A stretch of 35,794 nucleotides of DNA, taken from Crocosphaera sp. (GTDB lineage: Bacteria > Cyanobacteriota > Cyanobacteriia > Cyanobacteriales > Microcystaceae). Below the pieces are notes generated by a model, which saw only the letters and a program-made list of their open reading frames with translations, did not search any database and was not told the origin of the DNA. Positions 493 through 25,458 of the stretch are shown here, in pieces. Every line of letters begins with the position of its first letter. Position 1 is the first letter of the stretch. A program made the translations under genes and the position numbers. The stretch is taken from assembly GCA_030064935.1 (NCBI GenBank), contig JASJEA010000016.1:1-35794 (forward strand), read 5' to 3'.

Positions 493-3354
493 ATGGTTAA
501 TCAAAAGCCCGGAGTACCTAAGATATTCTCGAATCCATTAAAAAAACTATTGAGATGGCCATCGCTTATTAACTTCTTCTTACTATTTCTCATTTCCATC
601 GCAGTACCTCTATGGGTTTCCCAAGTTTCTTTATCAACTCCTATTATTCAAACTCAACACAATGTTTTAGAGTTAATAGAGCAAGCTAAACAACAATATC
701 AAGAAAAAAAGTTCTCTGAAGCAGCAATAATTTGGCAACAAATGGCTGATACTTTTGGGACAAAAGGAGATACACTCAATCAAGCTATGGCATTGAGTAA
801 TCTTTCTTTGACTTATCAACAATTAGGTCAATGGAATGAAGCAAAAACAACAATCAATCAAAGTATTTCTCTCTTAGAATCTATTGAAAATAGTCCGGTA
901 CAAGCTCGTATTTTAGCTGCTAGTTTAGATATTAAAGGACAATTACAATTATCATTAGGCGAAGCAGTTAATGCCCTAAATAATTGGCAAGAAGCGACTA
1001 AAATTTATAAAAATATTGGTAATCATAAAAAAGTTTTTCAAAGTAAAATTAATCAAGCTCAAGCTATGCAACAGTTAGGATTTTATCCGAGAGCTTGTCA
1101 AACATTAATAGAGACTTTAGATATTAAGACAAACAACTGTGAAATATCAGAAAATAATCTCGAAAATTTACCAGAGAAAATATCAATTTCTCAAAAAGTT
1201 TTAGGATTACGAAGCTTGGCTAATGTCTTGAGGGTAACTGGAAAAACTAAACAATCGCAACTGGTTTTATTAAAAAGTTTTCAATTAGCACAAACTGAAG
1301 ATAATCTTGAAGCTTTAGCGGCAATTTATCTTAGTTTAGGAAATACAGCCAGAGTGTTAGGATATCAAATAATAGCAAGAGAAAAACAACGACAGCCAAT
1401 CAATTCAAGGGATTCAATAACTTGTATTCCAAGTCAAAATTATCAAAAGAGTGAGGAATTTTATCAACAGGCGATCGCTTGCTATCATAAAGCCGCATCA
1501 GGAACATTATCCATTACTAAAATACAAGCACAACTCAATTCATTAAGTCTTTTCATACAAAGAGAAAAATGGAATCAAGTTCTAAAAATCGTCGAAAAAT
1601 TACAAACAGAGCTTATAGATAATGTTGATAATCAGATAATTTTATTACCTCCCAGTCGAGAAATTGTAACGGCTCAACTGAAATTGGCACAAAATTTTAT
1701 CTGTCTGCAAACTATTTTTAATTCCAATAATCCTCAACTGGTAACTCCAATTTTACAGTCTTGTCCAACTGTTAAAAAAACTCTCAATGTAAACGAAATC
1801 CAATCCTTATCCATTCCAACTTGGACAACCATTAATAAACTGATAGAAACAGCACTTAACCAAGCTCAAACCATAGGAGATAAACAAGGTGAAGCCAACG
1901 CTTTTGGTTATTTAGGGGCAACCTATCAAGGATTAGGAAATCTAACTAAAGCGAAACAGTTAACAGAATCTTCTTTGCAAAGACTTTCTGCCTTTGATAA
2001 TCCTGAGTTGGCCTATCTATGGCAATGGCAACTGGGAAGATTTTATCAACTTGAGAGCAAAAATCAAAAAGCGATCGCCTCTTATACCTTAGCCGTGGAG
2101 ATCCTCGAATCATTGCGACAGGATTTAGTAGTTACCAATGCTGACATTCAATATAACTTCCGAGATAGTGTAGAACCAGTCTATCGGGAATTGGTGGCGC
2201 AACTCTTGCAACCCTCAAATACAGGAAAAATCAGCCAAGAAAACCTCACAAAAGCCCGTAAAATCATAGAATCACTACAATTAGCCGAACTTAATAACTT
2301 CTTTCAGGAAGCTTGTATTGATGCTCAACCGCAACAAATTGACGAACTTGATCCCAATGCTGCGGTTATTTATTCTATTGTTTTACCCCAACACTTAGCC
2401 GTCATCTTATCCATACCTGGAAATCCCTTAAGTTATTATCAAACAAGCTTTAAAAACGCATCCCTAGAAGTTGAAGCCGTTTTTGATGACCTATTTGCCC
2501 AGTTAAACCCCTATATTTCTAGTCCTGAGCCCCTAAATCCCCATCAAAAACTATATGATTGGTTAATTCGTCCCTTAGAAACAGAATTAAAGGAAAATCA
2601 GATCAAAACCTTAGTCTTTGTCCATGATGGTATATTGCGGGGTGTTCCCATGGCAGCACTGCACGATGGCCAGCAATATTTGATAGAAAAGTATCATCTG
2701 GCTTTAACCCCTGGATTACAATTGTTGAGTCCAAAATCCCTTTCTTCCGACCAATTAACAACCCTAGCCGGTGGCTTAGCCGAAGCCCGTCAAGGTTTTT
2801 CAGCGTTACCTGGGGTGAAAGAAGAAGTCAAAGAGATTTCTGAGATAGTCTCAGCAGAAGTTTTGTTAGATCAGCAGTTTACCAGCGATCGCCTACAACA
2901 AGCAATTGAGTCAACATCTTTTCCTATTGTCCACTTAGCCACTCATGGACAGTTTTCTTCCCAAGTAGAAGATACATTTTTATTGACCTGGGATGAGCGG
3001 ATCAACGTTAAAAATTTAGACCAATTCTTACGAGAAAGAGAGGGTCAACAAAGGAGTCCCATTGAACTGTTAATTTTAAGTGCTTGTCAGACGGCAACAG
3101 GAGATAAACGAGCAGTGTTAGGATTAGCGGGGGTAGCAGTTCGTTCCGGTGCGCGGAGTACCTTAGCCACTCTTTGGTCGGTGCAAGATGATTCTACGGC
3201 CGATTTAATTGCCCAATTTTATAAGATTTTAAGTCAGTCAGGGATCAGTAAAGCAGAAGCACTACGTCAGGCACAACTATCCCTTTTGCGATCTCCTCAA
3301 TATCAACATCCTTTTTATTGGGCTCCATTTGTTTTAGTGGGAAATTGGCTCTGA
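493..3354 (+). CDS. CHAT-domain tetratricopeptide repeat protein (caspase-like peptidase)
   Basis: About 953 residues from ATG at 493. A longer frame opens at TTG 424, but the ATG places a hydrophobic segment (about residues 27-45) near the N-terminus, as expected for a signal anchor. The N-terminal half is helical with TPR-like repeats (for example around residues 60-200 and 440-540). The C-terminal third is a CHAT domain of the caspase/HetF-associated type. The catalytic His lies in LATHGQF (about residue 818) and the Cys in LSACQT (about residue 865), followed by the glycine-rich GLAGVAVRSGA segment. Both catalytic residues are present, so the peptidase looks intact. The TPRs probably bind a partner or substrate. 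Neighbours are a DUF928 gene downstream and a CHASE2/AAA protein on the other strand, a grouping seen elsewhere in cyanobacteria. Substrate unknown. Confidence 0.92.
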   Translation: MVNQKPGVPKIFSNPLKKLLRWPSLINFFLLFLISIAVPLWVSQVSLSTPIIQTQHNVLELIEQAKQQYQEKKFSEAAIIWQQMADTFGTKGDTLNQAMALSNLSLTYQQLGQWNEAKTTINQSISLLESIENSPVQARILAASLDIKGQLQLSLGEAVNALNNWQEATKIYKNIGNHKKVFQSKINQAQAMQQLGFYPRACQTLIETLDIKTNNCEISENNLENLPEKISISQKVLGLRSLANVLRVTGKTKQSQLVLLKSFQLAQTEDNLEALAAIYLSLGNTARVLGYQIIAREKQRQPINSRDSITCIPSQNYQKSEEFYQQAIACYHKAASGTLSITKIQAQLNSLSLFIQREKWNQVLKIVEKLQTELIDNVDNQIILLPPSREIVTAQLKLAQNFICLQTIFNSNNPQLVTPILQSCPTVKKTLNVNEIQSLSIPTWTTINKLIETALNQAQTIGDKQGEANAFGYLGATYQGLGNLTKAKQLTESSLQRLSAFDNPELAYLWQWQLGRFYQLESKNQKAIASYTLAVEILESLRQDLVVTNADIQYNFRDSVEPVYRELVAQLLQPSNTGKISQENLTKARKIIESLQLAELNNFFQEACIDAQPQQIDELDPNAAVIYSIVLPQHLAVILSIPGNPLSYYQTSFKNASLEVEAVFDDLFAQLNPYISSPEPLNPHQKLYDWLIRPLETELKENQIKTLVFVHDGILRGVPMAALHDGQQYLIEKYHLALTPGLQLLSPKSLSSDQLTTLAGGLAEARQGFSALPGVKEEVKEISEIVSAEVLLDQQFTSDRLQQAIESTSFPIVHLATHGQFSSQVEDTFLLTWDERINVKNLDQFLREREGQQRSPIELLILSACQTATGDKRAVLGLAGVAVRSGARSTLATLWSVQDDSTADLIAQFYKILSQSGISKAEALRQAQLSLLRSPQYQHPFYWAPFVLVGNWL

Positions 3355-3510
3355 ACTATCCCAACTAAAAAATCAGGTTTATTTTAGGTAACAAAGTCAG
3401 GGCATAGTTTCGGTCAATTAAAACAAAAATAGGATTAAATCAGGTTTTTCAAAATCAAGGTTAACAACTCAATTAATTCAGTACAATTAAGTTAGCTAAC
3501 CCTGCAACGT

Positions 3511-3538
3511 GAGTTCGGTGTTAGGAGTTCGGAGTTAT
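3511..3538. repeat. Degenerate heptanucleotide tandem repeat (4 units)
   Basis: Four consecutive 7-mers: GAGTTCG, GTGTTAG, GAGTTCG, GAGTTAT. This is the period typical of cyanobacterial short tandemly repeated sequences, as in the longer array at 12139-12271, but with a different unit. Confidence 0.6.
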
Positions 3539-3623
3539 GATTTTTTAGAGGAGACAATGAGGGTTTGAGGCGGCTGATTTGAGTGAGTTGTCTACAAATT
3601 TCCTTAGATCGAACTCAAGTCTG
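3532..3623 (+). repeat. Dispersed intergenic repeat, copy A
   Basis: From the shared core GACAATGAGGGTTT at 3553, 57 of 71 bases match 28652-28722 without gaps (hand count). The match weakly extends upstream to GAGTTATG at 3532/28631 at the same spacing. Both copies lie on the + strand between + strand genes and upstream of a gene for a small exported protein. Neither copy encodes a recognisable protein. Confidence 0.7.
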
Positions 3624-3708
3624 CAAGAAGCCCTGCACTATAAGCTTACGTCGCTGTCGGGTAGTTCACCTCATTCACTTGACCTTGGAATTTAGGAAAA
3701 TAATCAAG

Positions 3709-4458
3709 ATGCTAAATAACTACAAGTTGCTCAATCTCATAACCCTAAGTTTATTACTTTTAAATCCTTCGGTAATCCTCACTGAACCCATTAACAACCC
3801 ATCTACTACAAATGATAGAACCTTGATTAGAGTATTGTTTAAGCCACCACCAGATGATAAAAAGCCAGACCAAACAAGAGGTGCTGGCTCGCGTCACGAT
3901 GGACAATGTTCCATAGATACCCCCTCGGAAAATCGAGCTAACACCTCATCCCATCAACCTGATATTATCCCCCTCATCCCTTCATCTAACTTTGGATTAA
4001 CCACAGCAGAACGCCCCATTTTCTGGATTAATTTACCAGAAACCTCTGCCCAACAAGTGGTTTTGAGTATTAAAACAGAAGGTAAAACCCATCATTCTCA
4101 AACCCTTATTTCCATCACCGAAAAGTCTGGTTTGATAGCCCTTCAACCTTCCCCGGACTCCCCTCCCTTAGAAGTGGGGAAAGTCTATCAATGGGCAGCC
4201 GTTTTGGTCTGTGGAGAACGCCCAAGTCCTAATGATCCAGCGATCTCTGCTTGGGTTCATCGTGTCCCCTTATCTAAACCCAGAAATATAAGTACACCTT
4301 TAGAACAAGCCGCTTGGTATGGAGAACAAGGAATTTGGTATGATGCACTCACCTCTCTGGTTCAAGTCAAGCGATCGCAACCTAATAATGAAAACTTAAT
4401 TAACATCTGGGCTGAGTTTCTTGAGTCGGCAGGACTTCAAGCAACCTCTTTTCAATAA
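3709..4458 (+). CDS. DUF928 domain exported protein
   Basis: About 249 residues from ATG 3709. The frame is open back to 3583, but that extension runs through repeat DNA and would bury the signal peptide; from 3709 the protein begins with a basic start and a leucine-rich hydrophobic core (residues about 7-22). The body has the pattern of the cyanobacterial DUF928 family: a Pro/Asp-rich linker, RGAGSR, a Cys, a central IPSSNFGLTTAERPIFW segment and the C-terminal part EVGKVYQWAAVLVCGERPS. The function of DUF928 is unknown; members commonly lie near CHAT-TPR and CHASE2 genes, as here. Its last 59 bases overlap the end of the convergent CHASE2/AAA gene. Confidence 0.85.
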   Translation: MLNNYKLLNLITLSLLLLNPSVILTEPINNPSTTNDRTLIRVLFKPPPDDKKPDQTRGAGSRHDGQCSIDTPSENRANTSSHQPDIIPLIPSSNFGLTTAERPIFWINLPETSAQQVVLSIKTEGKTHHSQTLISITEKSGLIALQPSPDSPPLEVGKVYQWAAVLVCGERPSPNDPAISAWVHRVPLSKPRNISTPLEQAAWYGEQGIWYDALTSLVQVKRSQPNNENLINIWAEFLESAGLQATSFQ

Positions 4459-7156
4459 ATGCCTTATTGTCCTTACTTTCTGACTGTTTTAGGTATTCAA
4501 TAGCAATACACCCAGTGGCCGGATCATCTTGATAGGTTTCTAACAACAAAGCCAATGTTAGTGCAAATTTTAGTTTCTCTTGTTGCTGATACCCAATCAT
4601 CACTAGGACGAATCCTGCCGCAACAAATGCCAATAAAGCAGGAATGAACGGCAACCACCAACCGAAGATAAAGGCGAAATAACATCCCCCGAAAAGAAGA
4701 CTAATCACCACAAGCCAAATCAAAGTTATCCCTCTCATCGATTGAAACCACCAGCTTATGACTGCCCCTATCAAGGCAATCACGCTTATCCATAGCCATT
4801 CTATCGGCTCAGACCAAACTCGGAGCAGGGCTCTTCCATCAAGGGCAGAACTGAGGATGTTACTAGCAATATTGGCATGAAGCACAATCCCTGGCATCAT
4901 CGATCCTTTATAGCTGTAAGGAGTATAAAATAAATCATTCATACTTTCGGCGGTTGTACCAAGAAACACAAGGCGATTGCGTAAACTCTTGGGAGGTATT
5001 TGATTATTCAAGAGATCCCTTAAGGAGAAAGTCAAAAAATCGGCCTGAGTTCCCCGAAAATTCAACAAAACCTGATAACCGCCAGAATCAGTGCGGATAT
5101 AACCCCCATCATTGTCTTTAAATCGCTGAAAAACGGCTTTTCCTAAACGCACTCTTTGGCCATTTTCTAAAATTTCTAGGGTTATTCCTTCTTTTTCAAG
5201 ATAATTTAAGGCCAACATAACCCCTAAACTGTAGCGTACTTCATCTTCGCAGAGCACGACCGATAATAAAGCACGTCTTACCTTGCCATCGGTATCTAGC
5301 ACTTGATCGGCAAATCCCACTTGTCCCAGTTGACTCAATACAGGAGAGGGTTTAACTTGATTGCCAATGACTTTCTCAATGCCAAATAGGTTGGAGGTTG
5401 ATTGAAATACCTTGACCAAATCAGTATGGCCTGGTTCTACCGATAAATCTCGATAAATATCAAGTCCAATAGCTTGAGGGTTTTGGGCTTTAATTTTCGT
5501 AATTGCCTCAGCTAAAATACCATCTGGAATCAAGCCTTGTTTGGCCTCTCTCAAGTCTGTCTCATCAATAGTAATAATAGCAATCCGAGAATCGGGTGCT
5601 TCTAAAGGGCGTAAACGGAAGAATAGATCGAGTAGATTCCATTCTAATCCTTGCAATAGTCCACTGAAGCGCAACAACAGAATCATTCCGGTGACACTCA
5701 AGGCTGTTAGGGGTATCCATGCCCTGCCAATTCGTCGTTTTTGTACTTTTTGTTTGGCCTGTGCTCTAGCTGATGCTAATAGTTGACTAGCTTTTTCCGT
5801 CGTTTCTAGTAACGTTTTGGTTTTTTGCCGAGCTAATTCTTGACTAGCCACTAAAAATTGATAGTCTACATCGCTGAGGCTTTTTCCTAAAGCCCAAGTT
5901 AGGGCATTTTGTAATTCTAGTCCCTGTAATAAACAAGATTCATTCTTTTTTTTTGAGGCAATCCAAGCATTTACCGCAGCAGAATAGGGACGCAACTTTT
6001 CTAAGTTTTTTTCAACCCAAGTGATGTCAAAAATAGTTTTATAAATCATATTATAAACCTCAATTTGTCCTTGTTTTTCCACAACTAATCCTGACAGTCG
6101 TAACTCCATTTGTTCTGAACTACCATCAGAGCAAATTGTCCCTTGTTCTAAAATTTTCTTATACAGTCCTAACAGTTGTACTGCCTTTTGCTCATTGCGC
6201 AGAATTCTATCTCGAATGGTTCTTAAATGTTCAGGTTCATCTTTTACTTCCCAATTCTCTAGAATATGAGAACGTACCACTTGCTCTATAAATTTTATAT
6301 TTTCTTCTTGCAAACTTATACTACTAGATGTTGGCCATTTTTTAGTCTCTATAGTCTGCTGTTGAGTTTCTATACTCTGCATTACTAACTGACAAAGTTT
6401 TTGTGTCAAAAAGGGTTGCCCACCCGTCCATTCTAAGATATCTTTGATGATGGTTTCAGGATGATCAATCTTTGCTCTTAACCCCTCAATTAAGGGTTTA
6501 ACTTCATCAAATTGAAATCCTTGTAATTGAATGCCTTGACCAATATTAAAAGGCGTTTGCGTTTTGTCTTCAATTAAATCTGAGGGGGTAGCGACTCCCA
6601 ACAGCGTAAAAGTTAACCTTTGATAGTCAACATGGGTATCCCGTTGGTCATAACAATAAAGAATTAGTCCAAAAAAATCATCGAGAGAAAAATTTTGACT
6701 AAGAACTCGATCAATTTCATCAACGAAAATAACAATTTTTTGTTTGATTTCAACTAAGAGTATTTCTTTAATAAATAAGCTTAAAAGCTGTACAGGAGAG
6801 AACAAATCTCGTCGTTCTCGCCACCAACTTCGCCATTGAATTTTTGAGGTCAAATCAGAACTACTTACCAAAGATTGAACCATACCTGCATACCATTTTT
6901 CAGGGGTTACATCTTGGGTTCCCATTCCTGTTAAATCAATAAAAACACAGACTGTCCCTTCTGTTTGCAGTCGTTGCATCGTTCGCACCCGCAAACTAGA
7001 TTTTCCCATTTGCCGGGAGTTAAGTACATAACAAAATTGTCCTGCTTTTAAAGCTTGATAGAAGTCTAAATCAGCTTGTCGTGTTACATAGCTAGGTGCA
7101 TGACTATCGAGACTTCCTCCAACTTGATATTCATAAGTTGACTTAGTTTCAGTCAT
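4400..7156 (-). CDS. AAA-like ATPase fused to a CHASE2 sensor domain
   Basis: 918 residues. The N-terminal part is an AAA-like (AAA_35 type) NTPase domain, with Walker A NSRQMGKSS at residues 46-54 and Walker B IVIFVDEID at 141-149. A linker of about 200 residues leads to a membrane segment near 480-505. A CHASE2 domain follows (about 505-740, with IAIITIDETDL and AIGLDIYRD), then three closely spaced C-terminal membrane helices (about 770-860) and a short cytoplasmic tail. CHASE2 is an extracytoplasmic sensor domain usually attached to kinases, cyclases or, in cyanobacteria, AAA-like domains. Here it probably passes an outside signal to the NTPase. The gene is the last of a run of five same-strand genes (209-base gap from the previous one) and overlaps the DUF928 gene tail-to-tail. 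Confidence 0.9.
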   Translation of the reverse strand: MTETKSTYEYQVGGSLDSHAPSYVTRQADLDFYQALKAGQFCYVLNSRQMGKSSLRVRTMQRLQTEGTVCVFIDLTGMGTQDVTPEKWYAGMVQSLVSSSDLTSKIQWRSWWRERRDLFSPVQLLSLFIKEILLVEIKQKIVIFVDEIDRVLSQNFSLDDFFGLILYCYDQRDTHVDYQRLTFTLLGVATPSDLIEDKTQTPFNIGQGIQLQGFQFDEVKPLIEGLRAKIDHPETIIKDILEWTGGQPFLTQKLCQLVMQSIETQQQTIETKKWPTSSSISLQEENIKFIEQVVRSHILENWEVKDEPEHLRTIRDRILRNEQKAVQLLGLYKKILEQGTICSDGSSEQMELRLSGLVVEKQGQIEVYNMIYKTIFDITWVEKNLEKLRPYSAAVNAWIASKKKNESCLLQGLELQNALTWALGKSLSDVDYQFLVASQELARQKTKTLLETTEKASQLLASARAQAKQKVQKRRIGRAWIPLTALSVTGMILLLRFSGLLQGLEWNLLDLFFRLRPLEAPDSRIAIITIDETDLREAKQGLIPDGILAEAITKIKAQNPQAIGLDIYRDLSVEPGHTDLVKVFQSTSNLFGIEKVIGNQVKPSPVLSQLGQVGFADQVLDTDGKVRRALLSVVLCEDEVRYSLGVMLALNYLEKEGITLEILENGQRVRLGKAVFQRFKDNDGGYIRTDSGGYQVLLNFRGTQADFLTFSLRDLLNNQIPPKSLRNRLVFLGTTAESMNDLFYTPYSYKGSMMPGIVLHANIASNILSSALDGRALLRVWSEPIEWLWISVIALIGAVISWWFQSMRGITLIWLVVISLLFGGCYFAFIFGWWLPFIPALLAFVAAGFVLVMIGYQQQEKLKFALTLALLLETYQDDPATGCIAIEYLKQSESKDNKAFIEKRLLEVLPTQETQPRC

Positions 7157-7365
7157 AAATACTAGGGTTAATTGTTTTTGTTGAGGGATAAACCAGATGT
7201 GTTAATCACTCTATTTTAGCTGTTAAGGGCACTTATTGACCTTGCCAACTGATTTTTACCTTGTTTTTCAACAATCACCTGATATTAACCAATTTACCTA
7301 ATTCTGTGTTTAATCCTGGCTTTTGCCAATTGAAAAGCAGACTGTTTAGGTTTGTCTTGGTTCGA

Positions 7366-8709
7366 TCAAGCAGCAGACAAAACACGACTAAAATACTCAC
7401 GATACAAATTACATCTAGGGATGACCTGATTATTTTTGCGCTGCACTAGCCCCATACTATGCAACTTATAAATCTGCATAGAATCTAATTCTACTGGTTC
7501 TGGTGATCTGACAACCTTTTGCAACGCCTGAGCCAATTCTGGTATTTGTTGCAGAACCTCTAATTGTCTCCGTAGATGATTACTATAAATTCCTGCTTCA
7601 GTTGAAGCCTCATTTAGTAGTTGTTCTAGGGTAATTTTCCCGGAGCTTACCTCATACAGAGCCAACCGCACTAGAGAAGGATGTCCCCCCACCATCCCCA
7701 TCAATTCCTCTATTTGGGACTGATTCCACTTCAATTGATGAAGATGCGCTAATTTTGTAACTTGCTGTGAATCAAATTCTAGCAACTCTATGGGAACCCC
7801 TGCATTAAAGGGGGATTGATTCATATCCAAGGGAATATAACATTCCGTTGAGTGAGCCATGACAAGTCTTAGTTGTTTCCATTGTTGAGAAATCTTCCCC
7901 TTTTCATGCCAACTTCGCACCATTCCTAAAAAATCCTCAATCACTTGAGTTTGGGAAAAAAGCAAATCTACTTCATCTAAGGCTAAGACTAAAGGACAAT
8001 CTATGGCGGGTAATATATACTCTTCAAAGTAAACTGTACAGTTATCATTACTGCCTAAAATCTCTGTATCCCAATACTCACTTAATTGATTTTCTAATTT
8101 TAATTGTCGCCCCACCATCAAACAAAGCCAGCGCAAGAACTTATCTAAATTTGTGACAATGGAGCGCTCGACACTACCAAAATCCAAGTAAGCTGTTTTG
8201 TAATTTTGAGACTGGGAATGATTTAGTATCCTGCTCATCAATGAGGTTTTTCCCATCAGTTTTGGGGCTTTAATACGAATAAGAGAACCCTGCTTCTTGA
8301 TCGCATCGTAACACAGAGATTCGATGCCGTTTCGCTTGACATAGAAGCTCGAATCTAGGGGCACTGATCCCTCTGGAAAGGGAATTTCTTTGACCAACAC
8401 CGAAGCAGCTTGTAGAGGCTTTTGACTCTTTGATGCTCTCTTAAGAGGTTCGCGAAGATTCTTCTTACTAACTTTTTCTCCTAAGATATTTGATAGTTTC
8501 TTCCATAGCTTATTACCCACGTCTTTATTGAGGTAGTCAACCGTATAGCCAGCCTTTTGTGCCATTTCTTCATAAGTTTTTCCTTCCCAAGATCCCTGAA
8601 GCACTATCATCTCAACATCACTCAGGTATTTCCCCATCTTTTTGAAGACGAGTTGCTCAGCCACTTGTTTGGCCTCTGTCCAATTTAATTCCGAGTCTAA
8701 GTTCATCAC
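7366..8709 (-). CDS. HTH (vMAP-N0-like) plus AAA-like ATPase
   Basis: 447 residues; GTG at 8709 or ATG at 8706, with an AAGGAA ribosome-binding site upstream. Residues 1-90 resemble the N-terminal helix-turn-helix domain of vWA-MoxR-associated proteins (YLSDVEMIVLQGSWEGKTYE, then EEMAQKAGYTVDYLNKDV). An AAA-like (AAA_35) NTPase follows, with Walker A APKLMGKTS at about 148-156 and Walker B LVLALDEVD at 240-248, then a C-terminal winged-helix-like region. No membrane segment is visible, so the protein is probably cytosolic. It is related to the NTPase part of the next gene. It lies 61 bases downstream of the mcp gene on the same strand. vMAP-type proteins have been proposed to act in NTP-dependent conflict systems; the role here is inference. 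Confidence 0.82.
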   Translation of the reverse strand: MMNLDSELNWTEAKQVAEQLVFKKMGKYLSDVEMIVLQGSWEGKTYEEMAQKAGYTVDYLNKDVGNKLWKKLSNILGEKVSKKNLREPLKRASKSQKPLQAASVLVKEIPFPEGSVPLDSSFYVKRNGIESLCYDAIKKQGSLIRIKAPKLMGKTSLMSRILNHSQSQNYKTAYLDFGSVERSIVTNLDKFLRWLCLMVGRQLKLENQLSEYWDTEILGSNDNCTVYFEEYILPAIDCPLVLALDEVDLLFSQTQVIEDFLGMVRSWHEKGKISQQWKQLRLVMAHSTECYIPLDMNQSPFNAGVPIELLEFDSQQVTKLAHLHQLKWNQSQIEELMGMVGGHPSLVRLALYEVSSGKITLEQLLNEASTEAGIYSNHLRRQLEVLQQIPELAQALQKVVRSPEPVELDSMQIYKLHSMGLVQRKNNQVIPRCNLYREYFSRVLSAA

Positions 8710-8770
8710 ATCGTAGTTCCTTTTACTAGCTCACCAATTATAAGATTGATCAGATTCAATATTTTTAGCT

Positions 8771-10468
8771 CTAATCTTTAACTTTAAAAACAGAAATTTC
8801 TGACTGTAAAGCTTGAGCGGAATCATTCAATCTTTCGAGAACTAAATGGGTATCATGTAATGAATAAGCGGTTTGTTCAGAGCCTTCACTTAATTGTTCC
8901 ATTGCCTCTCGAATATGTTGTGCGCTACGGGATTGTTCGTCCATACTTTTACTGACTAATTCAAAGCGAGGGGTAATACGTTGTACCTGTTCAATGACTT
9001 GGGCAATTTGATGACTGATATTACCCACATCTTGCACACTACTACTTACTTCTTTATTAAATTTATCCATTTCCATCACCCCTGTAGAAACTGCAGATTG
9101 CATCTCTTTAACCATCTGTTCAATTTCCAAAGTTGCCACTGCAGTTTGGTCTGCTAAACGACGAATTTCTCTGGCAACAACAGCAAAACCAGCACCATAT
9201 TCTCCTGCTTTTTCGGCTTCAATCGCAGCATTTAAAGACAATAAATTGGTTTGATCAGCTACCTTGGTAATGGTTAAAACCACACTATTAATATTATGGG
9301 CTTTTTCACTCATAACTCCTAATTTAGAAGCAATAGAAGTGGTAGCTTCTGCCAATTGACGCATAGTCGTTTCCATTCTACCTAAATCATCTTGACCTTG
9401 GTTAGCGGCGGTGGCGGTACTTTGAGACAGTTCTGTAATTTGCTCCATTGTTTTTACTAATTCTTCTGAAGTATTAGCAATTTCTTGAGCCGTTGTTGTC
9501 ACTTCATTGGTTGAGGCAATTTGTTCGGTTAAAGTTGCTTCTAATTGTTTCCTAGATGCAGCCATTTGTGTCGTAGAACTGGTAATAGAAATCCCCGATT
9601 GTTGTACCTTAGAAATCAAAGAATTTAGGGTGTGAATCATTATTTTTAACGCTTCTAATAATTGACCGACTTCATCATGAGAAACAACTTCTAATTCTGC
9701 GGTTAAATTTCCCGCAGAAACTGCTTCAGCCAAATCAACTGCTTGCCCTAAAGATTGGGTAATGCTACGAGTAATCCAATACCCTAAACTGAGGATAGTA
9801 ATAATACTAATAATAAAAGTAATCGAAACAATATTAACTGTATTTTGTTGATGTTGTCTAGCAATTTTAGCTGACTCTTTAGATGAATTAACAACTTGAT
9901 CAACAAGGGCAACATTTTTATCTTTGAGTCCATCTTGAGAAGACTGAACTTTTGCCCCAATATTCTTTGCAGCAGCGATTTGCTCGCTATTAATTAGACT
10001 AAAAACTTCTTCGGCCTGAGTATTATAATTAATATGAGCTTGTTCATAATCATTTAAACTTCTGGCAATTTCTCTAAAATCCTCTTCATCTTTTTGATTA
10101 TTGGCAAGGTCGATTTGTTTTAAAATTAGACTCTGAGAGGATTCGATCGCCGTACGAACCCTACTTTGGTTATTGAGAAAGTTGGTACGAGATTGGTTAA
10201 AATTTGTTTTATTAGTAGGATTATTAGGACTATTAACCCCGGCAATATAAGCTTTCTCAAAGTTAAGAACTTGTTCGAGTTGATTTTCCTGCATTTGAAT
10301 CAAATTTTGAATCAAAGAAAGATCCTGTTCTGACATTTGTCTGACTTCAGCATACAATTTCGACATCCCTAACCAAGTAACAACTGCACCCACTCCCATA
10401 ATGACTGCTGAAAACACCAACAGCCCTAACAGTTTGGATTCAATGGTCATTGATTTATAAAACTTCAT
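8771..10468 (-). CDS. Methyl-accepting chemotaxis protein (WspA-like)
   Basis: 565 residues. Two membrane segments (about 13-33 and 210-232) flank a periplasmic helical sensor region. A HAMP domain (about 230-285) and a long cytoplasmic signalling coiled coil follow. The hairpin tip is readable as DQTNLLSLNAAIEAEKAG, followed by FAVVAREIRRLADQT, the part that docks CheA and CheW. A good ribosome-binding site (TAGGAATT before ATG) overlaps the cheR stop, 10 bases upstream, so co-translation with cheR is likely. The three-gene order cheW-cheR-mcp fits a Wsp-type sensory complex. No cheA, cheB or response regulator is present in the window. Confidence 0.95.
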   Translation of the reverse strand: MKFYKSMTIESKLLGLLVFSAVIMGVGAVVTWLGMSKLYAEVRQMSEQDLSLIQNLIQMQENQLEQVLNFEKAYIAGVNSPNNPTNKTNFNQSRTNFLNNQSRVRTAIESSQSLILKQIDLANNQKDEEDFREIARSLNDYEQAHINYNTQAEEVFSLINSEQIAAAKNIGAKVQSSQDGLKDKNVALVDQVVNSSKESAKIARQHQQNTVNIVSITFIISIITILSLGYWITRSITQSLGQAVDLAEAVSAGNLTAELEVVSHDEVGQLLEALKIMIHTLNSLISKVQQSGISITSSTTQMAASRKQLEATLTEQIASTNEVTTTAQEIANTSEELVKTMEQITELSQSTATAANQGQDDLGRMETTMRQLAEATTSIASKLGVMSEKAHNINSVVLTITKVADQTNLLSLNAAIEAEKAGEYGAGFAVVAREIRRLADQTAVATLEIEQMVKEMQSAVSTGVMEMDKFNKEVSSSVQDVGNISHQIAQVIEQVQRITPRFELVSKSMDEQSRSAQHIREAMEQLSEGSEQTAYSLHDTHLVLERLNDSAQALQSEISVFKVKD

Positions 10469-10478
10469 AATTCCTACC

Positions 10479-11675
10479 CTAAAGATTATCTAATCGTTGA
10501 ATGCGATTTTTAAGCACAGCAGCCCCTTTTGCATCTCCCTGATGCTCTCGCAGCAAAGCCAAATGAACTAACGCTTCACGATAATTGGGCCGCAGATAAA
10601 GGGCTTTCTGAAAGTATCGTTGGGCCTGTTCATTATCTCCCTGTGCTTGACAAATTTCTCCCCATAATAGATAACCAGCAGCATCAATGGGATTACGTTG
10701 GAGATAGTTTTGACAAGACTGGGCTGCTTCTTTTAATTGTCCCTGATTAGCGAATTGTTGTGCTATTTCTAAAGAAGAAAGTTGTTTTTTTTCCGGTTTT
10801 GCTAAAGATAGGGGTTGTTTTTTTTGTCGTTTAATCAGTGGGGAGGGTTTAACAGGTGGCAAACGATGAGGTGAAGGCTCTAAGACTTTTTGATAAGCAA
10901 ATGCAGAAGGATAATTCATAAAGCGAAAGGAAGGAGATTTAACTAAATTGCTTTCTGCTGCACCAACAAATAATAAGCCTCCATTGTCAAGCAACTGCTC
11001 TAAAGTTGTGAGAACACGATTGCGGGCTACTCCATCGAGATAAATCAACAGATGACGACAAAAAATAACATGATAGGGAGGATGAGTGGGCAACCAGGGG
11101 GAAAGAATATTTTTTGTCCTAAACTTAACTTGTTGACGAATAGACTCGCAGATTTGATAGTAATTCTGTCGAACCTCAAAAAATTGCTGATTTTCTACCC
11201 TGTCATGGGAACGAAAAGAATTTTTGCTATAAACTCCCTTTCTGGCTTTGGCTAAAGCTTTTTTACTAATATCGATCCCCTCTACCATAAATTGTTTTGA
11301 GGTTAGAGGAGAGTTGAGTAAAGTCATGGCAATAGAGTAAGGCTCCTCCCCCGTTGAACAAGGAATACTCAGTATTCTTAGAGTTTCTTGGGGATGGGTG
11401 GGTAGCCATTGGTTTTTAACATAATCTTGCAGACAAAAAAAAGCATTGCGATGACGAAAAAACCAAGTTTCCGGAACTACTACTTGTTCGACCAATTCCT
11501 GAAATTCTTGGGCTGAAGACTGCAAGCGTTTTAAATAGTCTGAGAGGTTATCGAGTCCACAAGCTTTTTGACGGCATTCTATAGCCTTGGTGAGTTGTCT
11601 TGAGCCTATTTTTCCCGAACCCAAGCCCATTTTTTGGGTAAGTAACTTTTCAATGCCTTGATATTTTTGATTCAT
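10479..11675 (-). CDS. CheR-type methyltransferase with C-terminal TPR (WspC-like)
   Basis: About 398 residues from ATG 11675, four bases after the cheW stop. An in-frame ATG at 11720 would overlap cheW by 41 bases, but homology to WspC begins at MNQKYQGIEKLL. The protein has a CheR N-terminal helical domain, a SAM-dependent methyltransferase domain (ILSIPCSTGEEPYS; FCRHLLIYLD) and, after a basic Pro-rich linker (about 270-300), TPR repeats including YLLWGEICQAQGDNEQAQRY. It would methylate glutamates of the MCP encoded next. TPR-bearing CheR proteins are typical of Wsp-type systems, where methylation needs no CheR-binding pentapeptide on the receptor; the MCP here ends SVFKVKD without such a motif. 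Confidence 0.92.
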   Translation of the reverse strand: MNQKYQGIEKLLTQKMGLGSGKIGSRQLTKAIECRQKACGLDNLSDYLKRLQSSAQEFQELVEQVVVPETWFFRHRNAFFCLQDYVKNQWLPTHPQETLRILSIPCSTGEEPYSIAMTLLNSPLTSKQFMVEGIDISKKALAKARKGVYSKNSFRSHDRVENQQFFEVRQNYYQICESIRQQVKFRTKNILSPWLPTHPPYHVIFCRHLLIYLDGVARNRVLTTLEQLLDNGGLLFVGAAESNLVKSPSFRFMNYPSAFAYQKVLEPSPHRLPPVKPSPLIKRQKKQPLSLAKPEKKQLSSLEIAQQFANQGQLKEAAQSCQNYLQRNPIDAAGYLLWGEICQAQGDNEQAQRYFQKALYLRPNYREALVHLALLREHQGDAKGAAVLKNRIQRLDNL

Positions 11676-11679
11676 GTGA

Positions 11680-12138
11680 TTATGTGCGATTTTCAGGCAA
11701 TAACCAGGTTCGTTGACCATCCGAAAGTAACCTATCCACTCTTAATCTTTGTATCATGCCATCTTTTTCGGGAATCATCTCCCCTAAGTAAGCGGCCAAG
11801 TCTGAATTGACTTCTGTGGAAATCCATTCGCTTTCGGGTTTATAGAGAGTATCTGTCACTCTTTCTGCCATCAGGCCAAGGTAGCGGGTTCTACCATCAG
11901 GCAGGGGATAATTTACTATGATAATGCGAGTGCTAAGACAATGGCGACAGGGATAATCCCCAATTAGGTAACATAAATCAATAGCAGGCACTATTTTACT
12001 GCGATAGTTAAATACCCCGGCTACATATTTGGGAGCTTGGTAAAGCTTTCTTAGGTCAAGTTGTGGAATAATCTCGACAATTTGTTTACTGTCGATGGCG
12101 TATCTTTCATCACCAAGATGAAATATGAGTAAGAGCAT
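11680..12138 (-). CDS. CheW-like coupling protein (WspB-like)
   Basis: 152 residues with the CheW fold: LLIFHLGDERYAIDSKQIVE at the start, then VAGVFNYRSKIVPAIDL, the usual CheW signature region. The order and layout resemble WspB, with WspC-like cheR directly downstream (4-base gap). CheW proteins link receptors to the CheA kinase, which is not encoded here. Its ATG at 12136-12138 touches the first unit of a 133-base heptamer array, so the bases that should hold a ribosome-binding site are CCCC-rich repeat units and no Shine-Dalgarno sequence is visible. Translation may depend on coupling or on the repeat itself. Confidence 0.9.
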   Translation of the reverse strand: MLLLIFHLGDERYAIDSKQIVEIIPQLDLRKLYQAPKYVAGVFNYRSKIVPAIDLCYLIGDYPCRHCLSTRIIIVNYPLPDGRTRYLGLMAERVTDTLYKPESEWISTEVNSDLAAYLGEMIPEKDGMIQRLRVDRLLSDGQRTWLLPENRT

Positions 12139-12271
12139 GGGGAATGGGGAATGGGGAATTGAGAATGGGGAATGGGGAATTGAGAATGGGGAATGGGGAA
12201 TTGAGAATGGGGAATTGAGAATTGAGAATGGGGAATGGGGAATTGAGAATTGAGAATTGAGAATTGAGAAT
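12139..12271. repeat. Heptanucleotide tandem array, 19 units of two variants
   Basis: Exactly 19 perfect 7-mers with no interruption: ten GGGGAAT (A) and nine TGAGAAT (B), in the order AAABAABAABABBAABBBB. It belongs to the cyanobacterial class of short tandemly repeated sequences. It begins at the base next to the cheW start codon and therefore forms the cheW 5' leader. On the minus strand an open frame runs through the whole array (about 12301 to 12110, TTG at best), out of frame with cheW. Confidence 0.95.
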
Positions 12272-12533
12272 GGGCAGAAAAAATAAGTTATAAAGTCTCA
12301 ATTAATCTATTTAAAGTTCGCTCTGAAACATAAACTTTACTGGTATTATGACAACAGTTTTTATCTCAATAGAGGAACAATGAAAATCAAGATCACCCCC
12401 ACACTGAACTTAATGAAAATAGTGATAGACATAATTTAAAACTTTGACGATATGAGGGAAGCATGGAAACTAATCAAGGGAAAACGACAACATTTAAGAT
12501 AGAATAGTCGAGATTTAAAGTGAGGAGTGCATT
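12272..12533. promoter_or_regulatory. Divergent intergenic region between cheW and the GHL10 gene
   Basis: Both the cheW operon promoter (reading left) and the GHL10 gene promoter (reading right) should lie here. A 19-residue ORF (12380-12439, +) has a fair GAGGAAC ribosome-binding site, but no known family is evident. No clear -35/-10 pair could be picked by eye. Confidence 0.4.
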
Positions 12534-24366: not shown

Positions 24367-25458
24367 ATGTCTTTTCCTGAACAAAACGCTCACCTATCAG
24401 ATCATTCGTCTTTAGCTATTCTTGGAATAGGATGCCGTTTCCCTGGTAAAGTTCATAGTCCCTCAGAATTGTGGCAACTACTGGTTCATGGCGTTGATGG
24501 GATTACTGAGATCCCATTAGATCCTTGGAATATCCAAAAACTTTATCATGAAGACAAAGAAAAAAAAGGGAAGGTTTATGTAAAAAAAGGAATATTTCTC
24601 GATAAAGTTGAGGAATTTGAGCATTTATTGTTGGGAATTTCTCCTAGAGAAGCAAATTGTCTTGATCCTCAACAAAAATTGTTATTAGAAGTCGCATGGA
24701 AAGCTTTTGAAACTCAAAGGACTTTAACATTCGAGTCTCTAGAACAGCTAGAAGAAAATTTACAAGCTTTCATAAATGGGGAAAAGGCATCAGGCATAAA
24801 TCAAGATAATTTGATCAATGAACCCCGTTCAAAACTAGCATTTATCTTTTCTGGAATGGGTAAGCAATGGTGGGCTATGGGAAAAGGTTTGTTAGATGAA
24901 CCTGTTTTTCGAGAAGTCATCCAACAATGCGATCACTATTTATCTTCTCTGGTATCCTGGTCCCTATGGCAAGAATTTACCGCCGATGAGAATCAATCTC
25001 GCGTTGATGAAACCGAAATTGGTCAAGTCTCCATTTTTGTCTTACAAGTTGCCTTAGCATCTCTGTGGCGATCTTGGGGAATTGAACCGGAGGTGATTAT
25101 TGGCCATAGTGTTGGAGAAGTTGCTGCGGCTCATGTTGCAGGTGTTTTGACATTAGAACAAGCCTTAGAGGTAATTGTTGGTCGAAGTCACTGTCAAGGA
25201 AAATTAGCTGAATATACGACTGCTTTAGAGGCTATTGCCGAGACATTAGAAGCAGAAGACATTTTATATCGCAGACTAAATGTGGAAGTTCCTTCCTATA
25301 GTCCGATAATGGATGAAATTAGCGAAGAAGCTCATGAAACCTTACAATGTCTGACACCTAAAAAACCAAGCATTCCTCTTGTCTCAACCGTTACTGGCAA
25401 GTTTGTGGTTAAAGCTCTTGAATTTAAGAAAGCTCTGATCTCATCACAAGAACGTTAG
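24367..25458 (+). pseudogene. Eroded type I polyketide synthase (KS-AT remnant)
   Basis: 363 codons in one open frame. Residues 13-115 are the start of a ketosynthase (SLAILGIGCRFPG ... LDPQQKLLLEVAWKAFE). The frame then jumps directly to the end of the KS-AT linker (about residue 116 on, LTFESLEQLEENLQAF), so the KS catalytic Cys and both His are gone. The acyltransferase follows (LAFIFSGMGKQWWAMG; GHSVGE with Ser at about 248). A second gap occurs near residue 283, where the usual GKGxMxAV ... INSP part is absent. The motif normally reading YHSPIMDE is SYSPIMDE, so the second catalytic residue is lost. All later modules are missing. The GMGxQWW style is that of HglE-like and related cyanobacterial PKS. 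Catalytically dead as read. Confidence 0.85.

Follow-up and report, generated by a model that had tools for sequence, protein, structure and literature searches.

The 35,794-nucleotide stretch of Crocosphaera sp. DNA analysed here (the window) is the entire contig JASJEA010000016.1 (C29) of a genome assembled in 319 contigs (G000). At its left end it carries genes for a CHAT protease, a DUF928 protein and two AAA_35 NTPases, one of which is part of a CHASE2 receptor. An original prediction, made from the DNA letters, had joined these genes to a neighbouring Wsp-like chemosensory run as a single pathway. All seven genes that it reported were found at their positions with domains intact, as judged by the open reading frame (ORF) list and a Pfam scan of 22 of the 24 window ORFs of at least 100 aa; the other two ORFs overlap longer genes.

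The plus strand encodes a TPR-CHAT protein (493..3354; ORF from 424, ATG at 493; PF12770, 2.6e-66) with a signal-like N-terminus, predicted to be extracytoplasmic. The view that this gene is intact held up: its CHAT domain has the His/Cys dyad, with codons at 2944..2946 (His, in HLATHG) and 3085..3087 (Cys, in SACQT), and both residues are the same in 8/8 aligned sequences, the window's included. Domain and dyad predict a caspase-fold cysteine protease. On the same strand follows the DUF928 gene (3709..4458; ORF from 3583, the ATG at 3709 fitting the orthologues; PF06051, 5e-45), whose product also has a signal-like N-terminus and is predicted to be periplasmic. The other five genes lie on the minus strand and are, in reading order, cheW (11680..12138), a TPR-bearing cheR methyltransferase gene (10479..11720), a gene for a methyl-accepting chemotaxis protein (MCP) with a HAMP domain (8771..10468), a second AAA_35 NTPase gene, for a 447-aa protein (7366..8709; AAA_35, 1e-149) and the gene for the AAA_35-CHASE2 membrane receptor (4400..7156; AAA_35, 5e-29; CHASE2, 2e-66), with its CHASE2 sensor domain at 4763..5692. 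cheW and cheR overlap by 41 bp; gaps of 10, 61 and 209 bp separate cheR from mcp, mcp from the 447-aa AAA_35 gene and that gene from the receptor gene, which in turn overlaps DUF928 by 59 bp, tail to tail. Because CHAT and DUF928 are on the plus strand, they cannot lie on the transcript from 12138 to 4400 that had been proposed.

We searched 59 genomes, comprising the window's own and 58 relatives, eight of them from the same genus; the window's relatives in this collection are cyanobacteria. Loci were tallied with profiles built from the loci of this study (E≤1e-5) and not with Pfam, which was used to confirm all 30 CHASE2 proteins described below and selected members of the CHAT, two-partner secretion (TPS) exoprotein and ShlB transporter families; TPS (PF05860) and ShlB (PF03865) were confirmed in this way in genes near CHAT. 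Contigs were scanned for the AAA_35-CHASE2 alignment, and the best 80 of 559 relatives comprised 27 of the CHASE2 type and 53 with other C-termini. DUF928 was present at 11 of the 27 CHASE2-type loci and 1 of the 53 others (Fisher's p=1e-5), TPS at 8 versus 2 (p=0.002), CHAT at 7 versus 4 (p=0.04) and ShlB at 5 versus none (p=0.003). These values are uncorrected for kinship and the loci are not independent, since eight relatives share the genus and further genomes are close; L041 and L046 overlap L101 and L100, and L219 and L102 are the same place, which appears once in each of two sets and twice in the pooled signal and distance counts.

DUF928, found in 49/59 genomes, was used as a second starting point, so that this test did not begin from the AAA_35 protein. 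The best listed match was taken in 40 of the 41 genomes listed, with stretches of up to 20 kb; G057 was left out, its match lying at a contig start. The 40 neighbourhoods contained CHASE2 in 30 cases, CHAT in 22, TPS in 21 and ShlB in 11. Where DUF928 and CHASE2 occurred together their genes were at most 303 bp apart in 38 of 41 loci, and CHAT accompanied TPS in 24 of 67 pooled loci: 4 had a fusion, and the other 20 had both genes on one strand, 18 of them within 2 kb. Overlapping genes, both CHAT with TPS and DUF928 with CHASE2, were seen in several loci. For the AAA_35 form, 11 of 12 listed loci had the receptor gene converging on DUF928 (one place being listed twice), compared with 0 of 29 loci with other outputs. 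The composition varied: one relative (G010) had TPS beside CHAT and DUF928 with no ShlB match, and another (G009) had a TPS-CHAT protein together with ShlB. The same pairing was found within the window's own genome, where 6/6 DUF928 genes lay within 300 bp of a CHASE2 gene (chance value 3.4% per gene within 10 kb).

Pfam confirmed CHASE2 in 30/30 receptors from the DUF928 neighbourhoods. Counted per family and not per protein, their outputs were GGDEF (16), EAL (9), CHAT (6), guanylate/adenylate cyclase (5), histidine kinase (2) and AAA_35 (1), with GGDEF, CHAT, cyclase, histidine kinase and AAA_35 adding up to 30. In the window's genome the CHASE2 proteins beside DUF928 likewise carried GGDEF (C247), GGDEF-EAL (C209), cyclase (C37) and, in the window, AAA_35 outputs. 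With a constant outer and a variable inner part, this looks like a receptor family. As judged from gene neighbourhoods, CHAT, DUF928, CHASE2 and the AAA_35 pair are a recurrent cyanobacterial group, whose predicted core is DUF928 with a CHASE2 receptor, often joined by a TPS transporter (ShlB), a TPS exoprotein and a TPR-CHAT protease. This part of the original prediction stands, while its extension to all seven families is not supported: by profiles, the Wsp-like genes were found at 0/27 AAA_35-CHASE2 loci and 0/40 DUF928 loci, and none of the others at 13 CheR-MCP loci. In the literature searched, mostly without subscription papers, we found no description of a TPS-CHAT-DUF928-CHASE2 module, and CHAT, DUF928 and related terms were not found in the main texts of the cyanobacterial proteomics papers searched.

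The co-occurrence could reflect a shared surface neighbourhood and nothing further, TPS and CHAT forming a processing unit and DUF928-CHASE2 a separate, mechanistically unlinked sensor. Pairs of DUF928 and CHASE2 without TPS or CHAT in the stretches examined, such as those on C209 and C37, are what such an arrangement would give. We nevertheless consider it rather improbable, given that CHAT and TPS occupied about half of the DUF928 neighbourhoods and none of the 13 CheR-MCP loci, and that the CHAT/TPS and DUF928/CHASE2 genes overlap in several loci.

The location of CHAT is indicated by its fusions. Pfam confirmed fusion proteins, with TPS at the N-terminus and CHAT at the C-terminus, in G042 (1850 aa), G055 (1565 aa), G011 (1479 aa) and G009 (1832 aa), and a fifth, incomplete in the stretch examined, was recognised in G045 by our own profiles only; the His/Cys dyad is kept in 5/5. 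Because TPS exoproteins carry a fused CHAT domain in five genomes, export of CHAT is probable, as is a position on the same side of the membrane as CHASE2. In G009 the fusion gene and the neighbouring DUF928, AAA_35-CHASE2 and AAA_35 genes are ordered and oriented as their counterparts in the window are, which makes this set a direct relative of the window's own; over 827 aligned columns the window's CHAT protein matches the G009 fusion at 40%. Among complete unfused CHAT ORFs, 19/24 had a signal-like N-terminus by a crude rule based on hydropathy only (a hydrophobic N-terminal segment after positive residues). Searches of solved-structure sequences with the CHAT protein and the 447-aa AAA_35 protein returned short or TPR matches only. 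As a separate observation, one receptor (L195, 7244-9619) has a CHAT domain N-terminal to CHASE2, with His (GHS) and Cys (NSCDG) present; owing to this position the domain is predicted to be cytoplasmic.

The receptor consists of an N-terminal AAA_35 part, one transmembrane segment, CHASE2, three transmembrane segments and a short tail. Given the one segment before and three after CHASE2, and the positive-inside rule, AAA_35 is predicted to be inside, CHASE2 outside and the tail cytoplasmic. The P-loop GKS and the Walker B DE residues of the AAA_35 half were invariant in 19 sequences. In a structural model of the receptor (pLDDT 80.6, pTM 0.46), residues 7-410 matched the archaeal ATPases 2qen (Z 19.6) and 2fna (Z 19.1), the plant NLR RPP1 (Z 16.2) and CED-4 (Z 15.1). 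Judged on residues 7-410 as a whole, the modelled AAA_35 part thus resembles a STAND-like NTPase.

The neighbouring 447-aa protein had been labelled as an HTH protein, a label that we dropped: its first 110 residues gave no Pfam match above the cut-off, and a sub-threshold HGD-D match covered residues 52-112 (E 0.051). Relatives at 63-83% identity were found in nine other genomes, among them G010 and, as a partial match, G012 (the others being G058, G026, G013, G018, G019, G038 and G029). G009 gave a 67% partial and a 53% match, and among the matches listed the eight other same-genus genomes reached at most 50% identity. Across L099-L178 the AAA_35 half of the receptor was observed with very different C-termini (27 CHASE2 and 53 other, among the best 80 of 559). 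A second AAA_35 gene adjoins the receptor-type AAA_35 gene in many of these loci, as the 447-aa gene does here. The two may constitute a swappable tandem NTPase pair.

The fold likeness to STAND, NLR and CED-4 NTPases invites a cytoplasmic reading of the locus as a conflict or cell-death system, in which the AAA_35 NTPases, on detecting stress or an invader, would switch on CHAT as a suicide protease. A CHAT ORF occurs nearby or in frame in 4 of the 53 AAA_35 loci without CHASE2, and caspase-like proteases are described in NTP-dependent conflict systems in the available part of PMC7159879. The signal-like N-termini of the window's CHAT protein and most of its relatives, together with the CHAT-TPS fusions, argue against this role, and PADLOC returned weak partial matches to 2/10 proteins only (TPR on CHAT and mad2 on CheR); we regard a suicide protease as unlikely. 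The window resembles the VMAP ternary conflict systems in combining NTPases with caspase-like proteases. It differs from them in lacking the MoxR and vWA proteins given as required in the accessible portion of PMC7159879, whose main text does not contain 'AAA_35' or 'CHASE2'. Membership of the VMAP systems was rejected, as neither MoxR, vWA nor a VMAP family was found among the 22 scanned ORFs of this one contig.

By the crude signal rule, 34/54 DUF928 ORFs had a signal-like N-terminus. Cys 67 and Cys 168 (counted from ATG 3709) are well conserved, which is compatible with an oxidising compartment. A model built with 11 sequences (pLDDT 75.5, pTM 0.72) predicts an Ig/FnIII-like sandwich followed by C-terminal helices, and the best re-aligned solved structure was that of the MtxA C-terminal domain (4z29; Z 10.0, 145 residues aligned, rmsd 3.7, 7% identity), the next best reaching Z 7.4. 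MtxA, from magnetotactic bacteria, is alike in this predicted fold and in having a CHASE2 receptor gene as its neighbour: according to the part of PMC4439547 available, the product of the gene after mtxA resembles CHASE2-bearing adenylate cyclases. It is unlike DUF928 in that no sequence similarity was found, and neither CHAT nor TPS is mentioned around MtxA in that part of the source. When the DUF928 profile was compared with PDB sequences, NKG2-D entries were the only matches (best E 0.0012), which we took as chance.

Partner genes of similar placement have been described elsewhere. In the BiofilmReg operon of Burkholderia a partner gene whose product has a predicted signal peptide lies beside a CHASE2 receptor with a variable cytoplasmic part, and a LysM-FecR protein is encoded beside a CHASE2 histidine kinase (PMC5192318, available in part). 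This operon is distinguished from the present module by FecR/LysM in the place of DUF928 and, in the same part of the source, by the absence of any mention of CHAT or TPS. The accessible text of PMC5587647, the one paper in the literature searched that names DUF928, describes a gene run in Nostoc: two genes for WD40 proteins, one hypothetical, one for a CHASE2 sensor and one for DUF928. The factors recognised by CHASE2 receptors are not known according to PMC5192318 (same part). From the neighbourhood and fold evidence we propose that DUF928 partners CHASE2 in the periplasm, which would give this domain of unknown function a testable role.

We read the genes between 493 and 8709, with a probability of roughly 60%, as the AAA_35 version of an envelope module that recurs in cyanobacteria and in which CHAT and DUF928 would lie outside the cytoplasmic membrane and CHASE2 would signal inward to AAA_35. 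CHAT would act outside this membrane to mature, release or degrade a TPS exoprotein. Periplasmic DUF928 would present the state of this process to CHASE2, whether as a fragment, a ligand or bare DUF928, and CHASE2 would relay the signal across the membrane to the output domain of the particular copy. Here this output would be the STAND-like AAA_35 NTPase, assembling with the neighbouring AAA_35 protein. The export of the window's CHAT protein, its action on a TPS exoprotein, the messenger role of DUF928 and the outside-in direction are the steps that we infer. A more ambitious version, which we put forward tentatively and as the less probable one, is a modular surveillance system running from a caspase-fold protease, fused to a TPS exoprotein or exported along with one, through DUF928 to CHASE2 with an exchangeable output; its AAA_35 form might act as a transmembrane, apoptosome- or NLR-like switch fired from outside. 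If true, a family of caspase-fold proteases would be at work on secreted exoproteins, beyond the cytoplasmic membrane.

A number of observations weigh against the envelope module. At the threshold used, 16 of the 27 AAA_35-CHASE2 loci had no DUF928 match, and the 40 DUF928 neighbourhoods, some of them cut by contig ends, lacked CHASE2 in 10, CHAT in 18, TPS in 19 and ShlB in 29 cases. The signal rule failed for 20/54 DUF928 ORFs and for 5/24 CHAT ORFs (a 287-aa fragment, a 564-aa ORF and three without preceding positive residues). MtxA was outside the first 50 Foldseek rows and was not retrieved by the profile of 11 DUF928 sequences from PDB sequences (E up to 10), for which reason the link between DUF928 and MtxA rests on one predicted model. 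Within the window's genome, the CHASE2 proteins beside DUF928 on C106 and C159 had no Pfam output domain, the CHAT loci on C207, C235 and C258 had no module partner in the stretches examined, and a CHASE2 gene on C176 stood alone on its 8-kb contig. TPS genes were not seen in the window, where only 492 bp of contig precede the CHAT ATG, and those elsewhere in the genome are not clearly partners of the window's CHAT. Four such TPS genes were found. The G010 TPS protein matched C263 best (41%), in a stretch with TPS and ShlB and without CHAT, and C133 has TPS and ShlB at a contig end.

The envelope module might also be run inside-out, with the cytoplasmic output and CHASE2 switching a periplasmic CHAT protease on and off. 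In the CdrA-LapG system of Pseudomonas aeruginosa, LapD is the receptor and LapG a cysteine protease. Like it, the present module combines a TPS exoprotein and an extracytoplasmic protease with a tie to cyclic di-GMP, represented here by the GGDEF domains of 16/30 CHASE2 partners. Unlike it, the module has as its protease a caspase-fold CHAT that is a neighbour of the TPS exoprotein or forms one protein with it, and as its membrane protein a CHASE2 receptor with DUF928. The available part of the review PMC5422565 describes a periplasmic protease under cyclic di-GMP control that releases the TPS adhesin in CdrA-LapG, and states that TpsA maturation proteases appear not to belong to TPS operons. 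Because CdrA-LapG is the nearest known logic, inside-out control is a serious rival. CHASE2 is nevertheless described as an extracellular sensory domain in the accessible parts of PMC5192318 and PMC5587647. Cyclase and histidine kinase outputs are normally downstream of an input. For these reasons we consider the inside-out direction possible and on the whole improbable. The likelihoods assigned to these explanations are not mutually exclusive, as the inside-out rival shares the module.

The Wsp system is defined by an MCP, CheW, CheR, a CheA-REC kinase, CheB and a WspR-type GGDEF regulator. The window is alike in having MCP, CheW and a TPR-bearing CheR in one run, and unlike in that no CheA, CheB or GGDEF regulator was present among the 22 scanned ORFs. 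We examined 13 other loci with CheR-MCP, a small control mostly from one genus. CheW was also present in 11 of them and lay on a different contig in G002 and G004; CheR was conserved in 7 of the 8 other same-genus genomes. CheA adjoined the cassette in one locus, following CheW-CheR-MCP (L092, 8497-15750, in G041). As it does so in only 1/13 loci, the cassette may represent a chemosensory operon that has been trimmed. The window's genome has four matches to the CheA dimerisation domain, on the other contigs C28, C48, C228 and C132, and tblastn with its four CheA proteins gave no match in the window. Outside L092, the kinase partner of the cassette must be encoded apart.

In the original prediction the MCP, CheR and CheW would gate both AAA_35 proteins and, as the last step, the protease CHAT. 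The genes do share a strand with a gap of 61 bp, and the terminator proposed as a possible break between 8771 and 8709 was not seen, a scan of this interval revealing no terminator-like site, and read-through is possible in this genome. The synteny expected of such a pathway was absent from the sampled loci. AAA_35, CHASE2, DUF928, CHAT, TPS and ShlB profiles matched 0/13 CheR-MCP loci, one of which (L082) gave one weak, 28% partial tblastn match to the N-terminal part of the AAA_35 protein; conversely, CheW, CheR and MCP were not detected in 20 fetched AAA_35 loci by tblastn, and an MCP was found in 1 of the 53 AAA_35 loci without CHASE2 (L157). In G010 both sets are on contig C1, at ~11-22 kb and 412-415 kb, ~390 kb apart. 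In 7 of the 8 same-genus genomes DNA similarity at the junction stopped at ~8755-8772, the MCP stop codon, with only the MCP side matched; the eighth (G005) gave no match to the junction stretch. The order from outside signal through NTPases to protease also misfits the topology, with signal-like N-termini on CHAT and DUF928 and CHAT fused to TPS exoproteins. One MCP-to-protease pathway was rejected for its lack of recurrence and the similarity break, and we now consider it very unlikely. This plausible one-pathway reading, which failed a synteny test set beforehand, is replaced by what look like two independent units, unit 1 (8771-12138) and unit 2 (493-8709), meeting at the junction (8710..8770). 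The contig may be chimaeric at 8710-8770, a possibility that, like the missing view of any TPS genes of the window's copy, leaves the recurrence results untouched.

In the remainder of the window, any genes for a TPS exoprotein or transporter ahead of CHAT would fall past the left contig end (1..423). A 61-aa open frame on the plus strand at 1-186 had no Pfam match; it may resemble the tail of a transposon-encoded TnpB. Rfam and tRNA scans of the window gave no matches. Between the divergent cheW and GHL10 genes, positions 12137-12274 consist of a tandem 7-bp unit in ~20 copies (a 21-bp super-unit in 6.3 copies). A 363-aa ORF at 24367-25458 on the plus strand contains the first parts only of ketoacyl synthase and acyltransferase domains, and looks like a shortened piece of a polyketide synthase.

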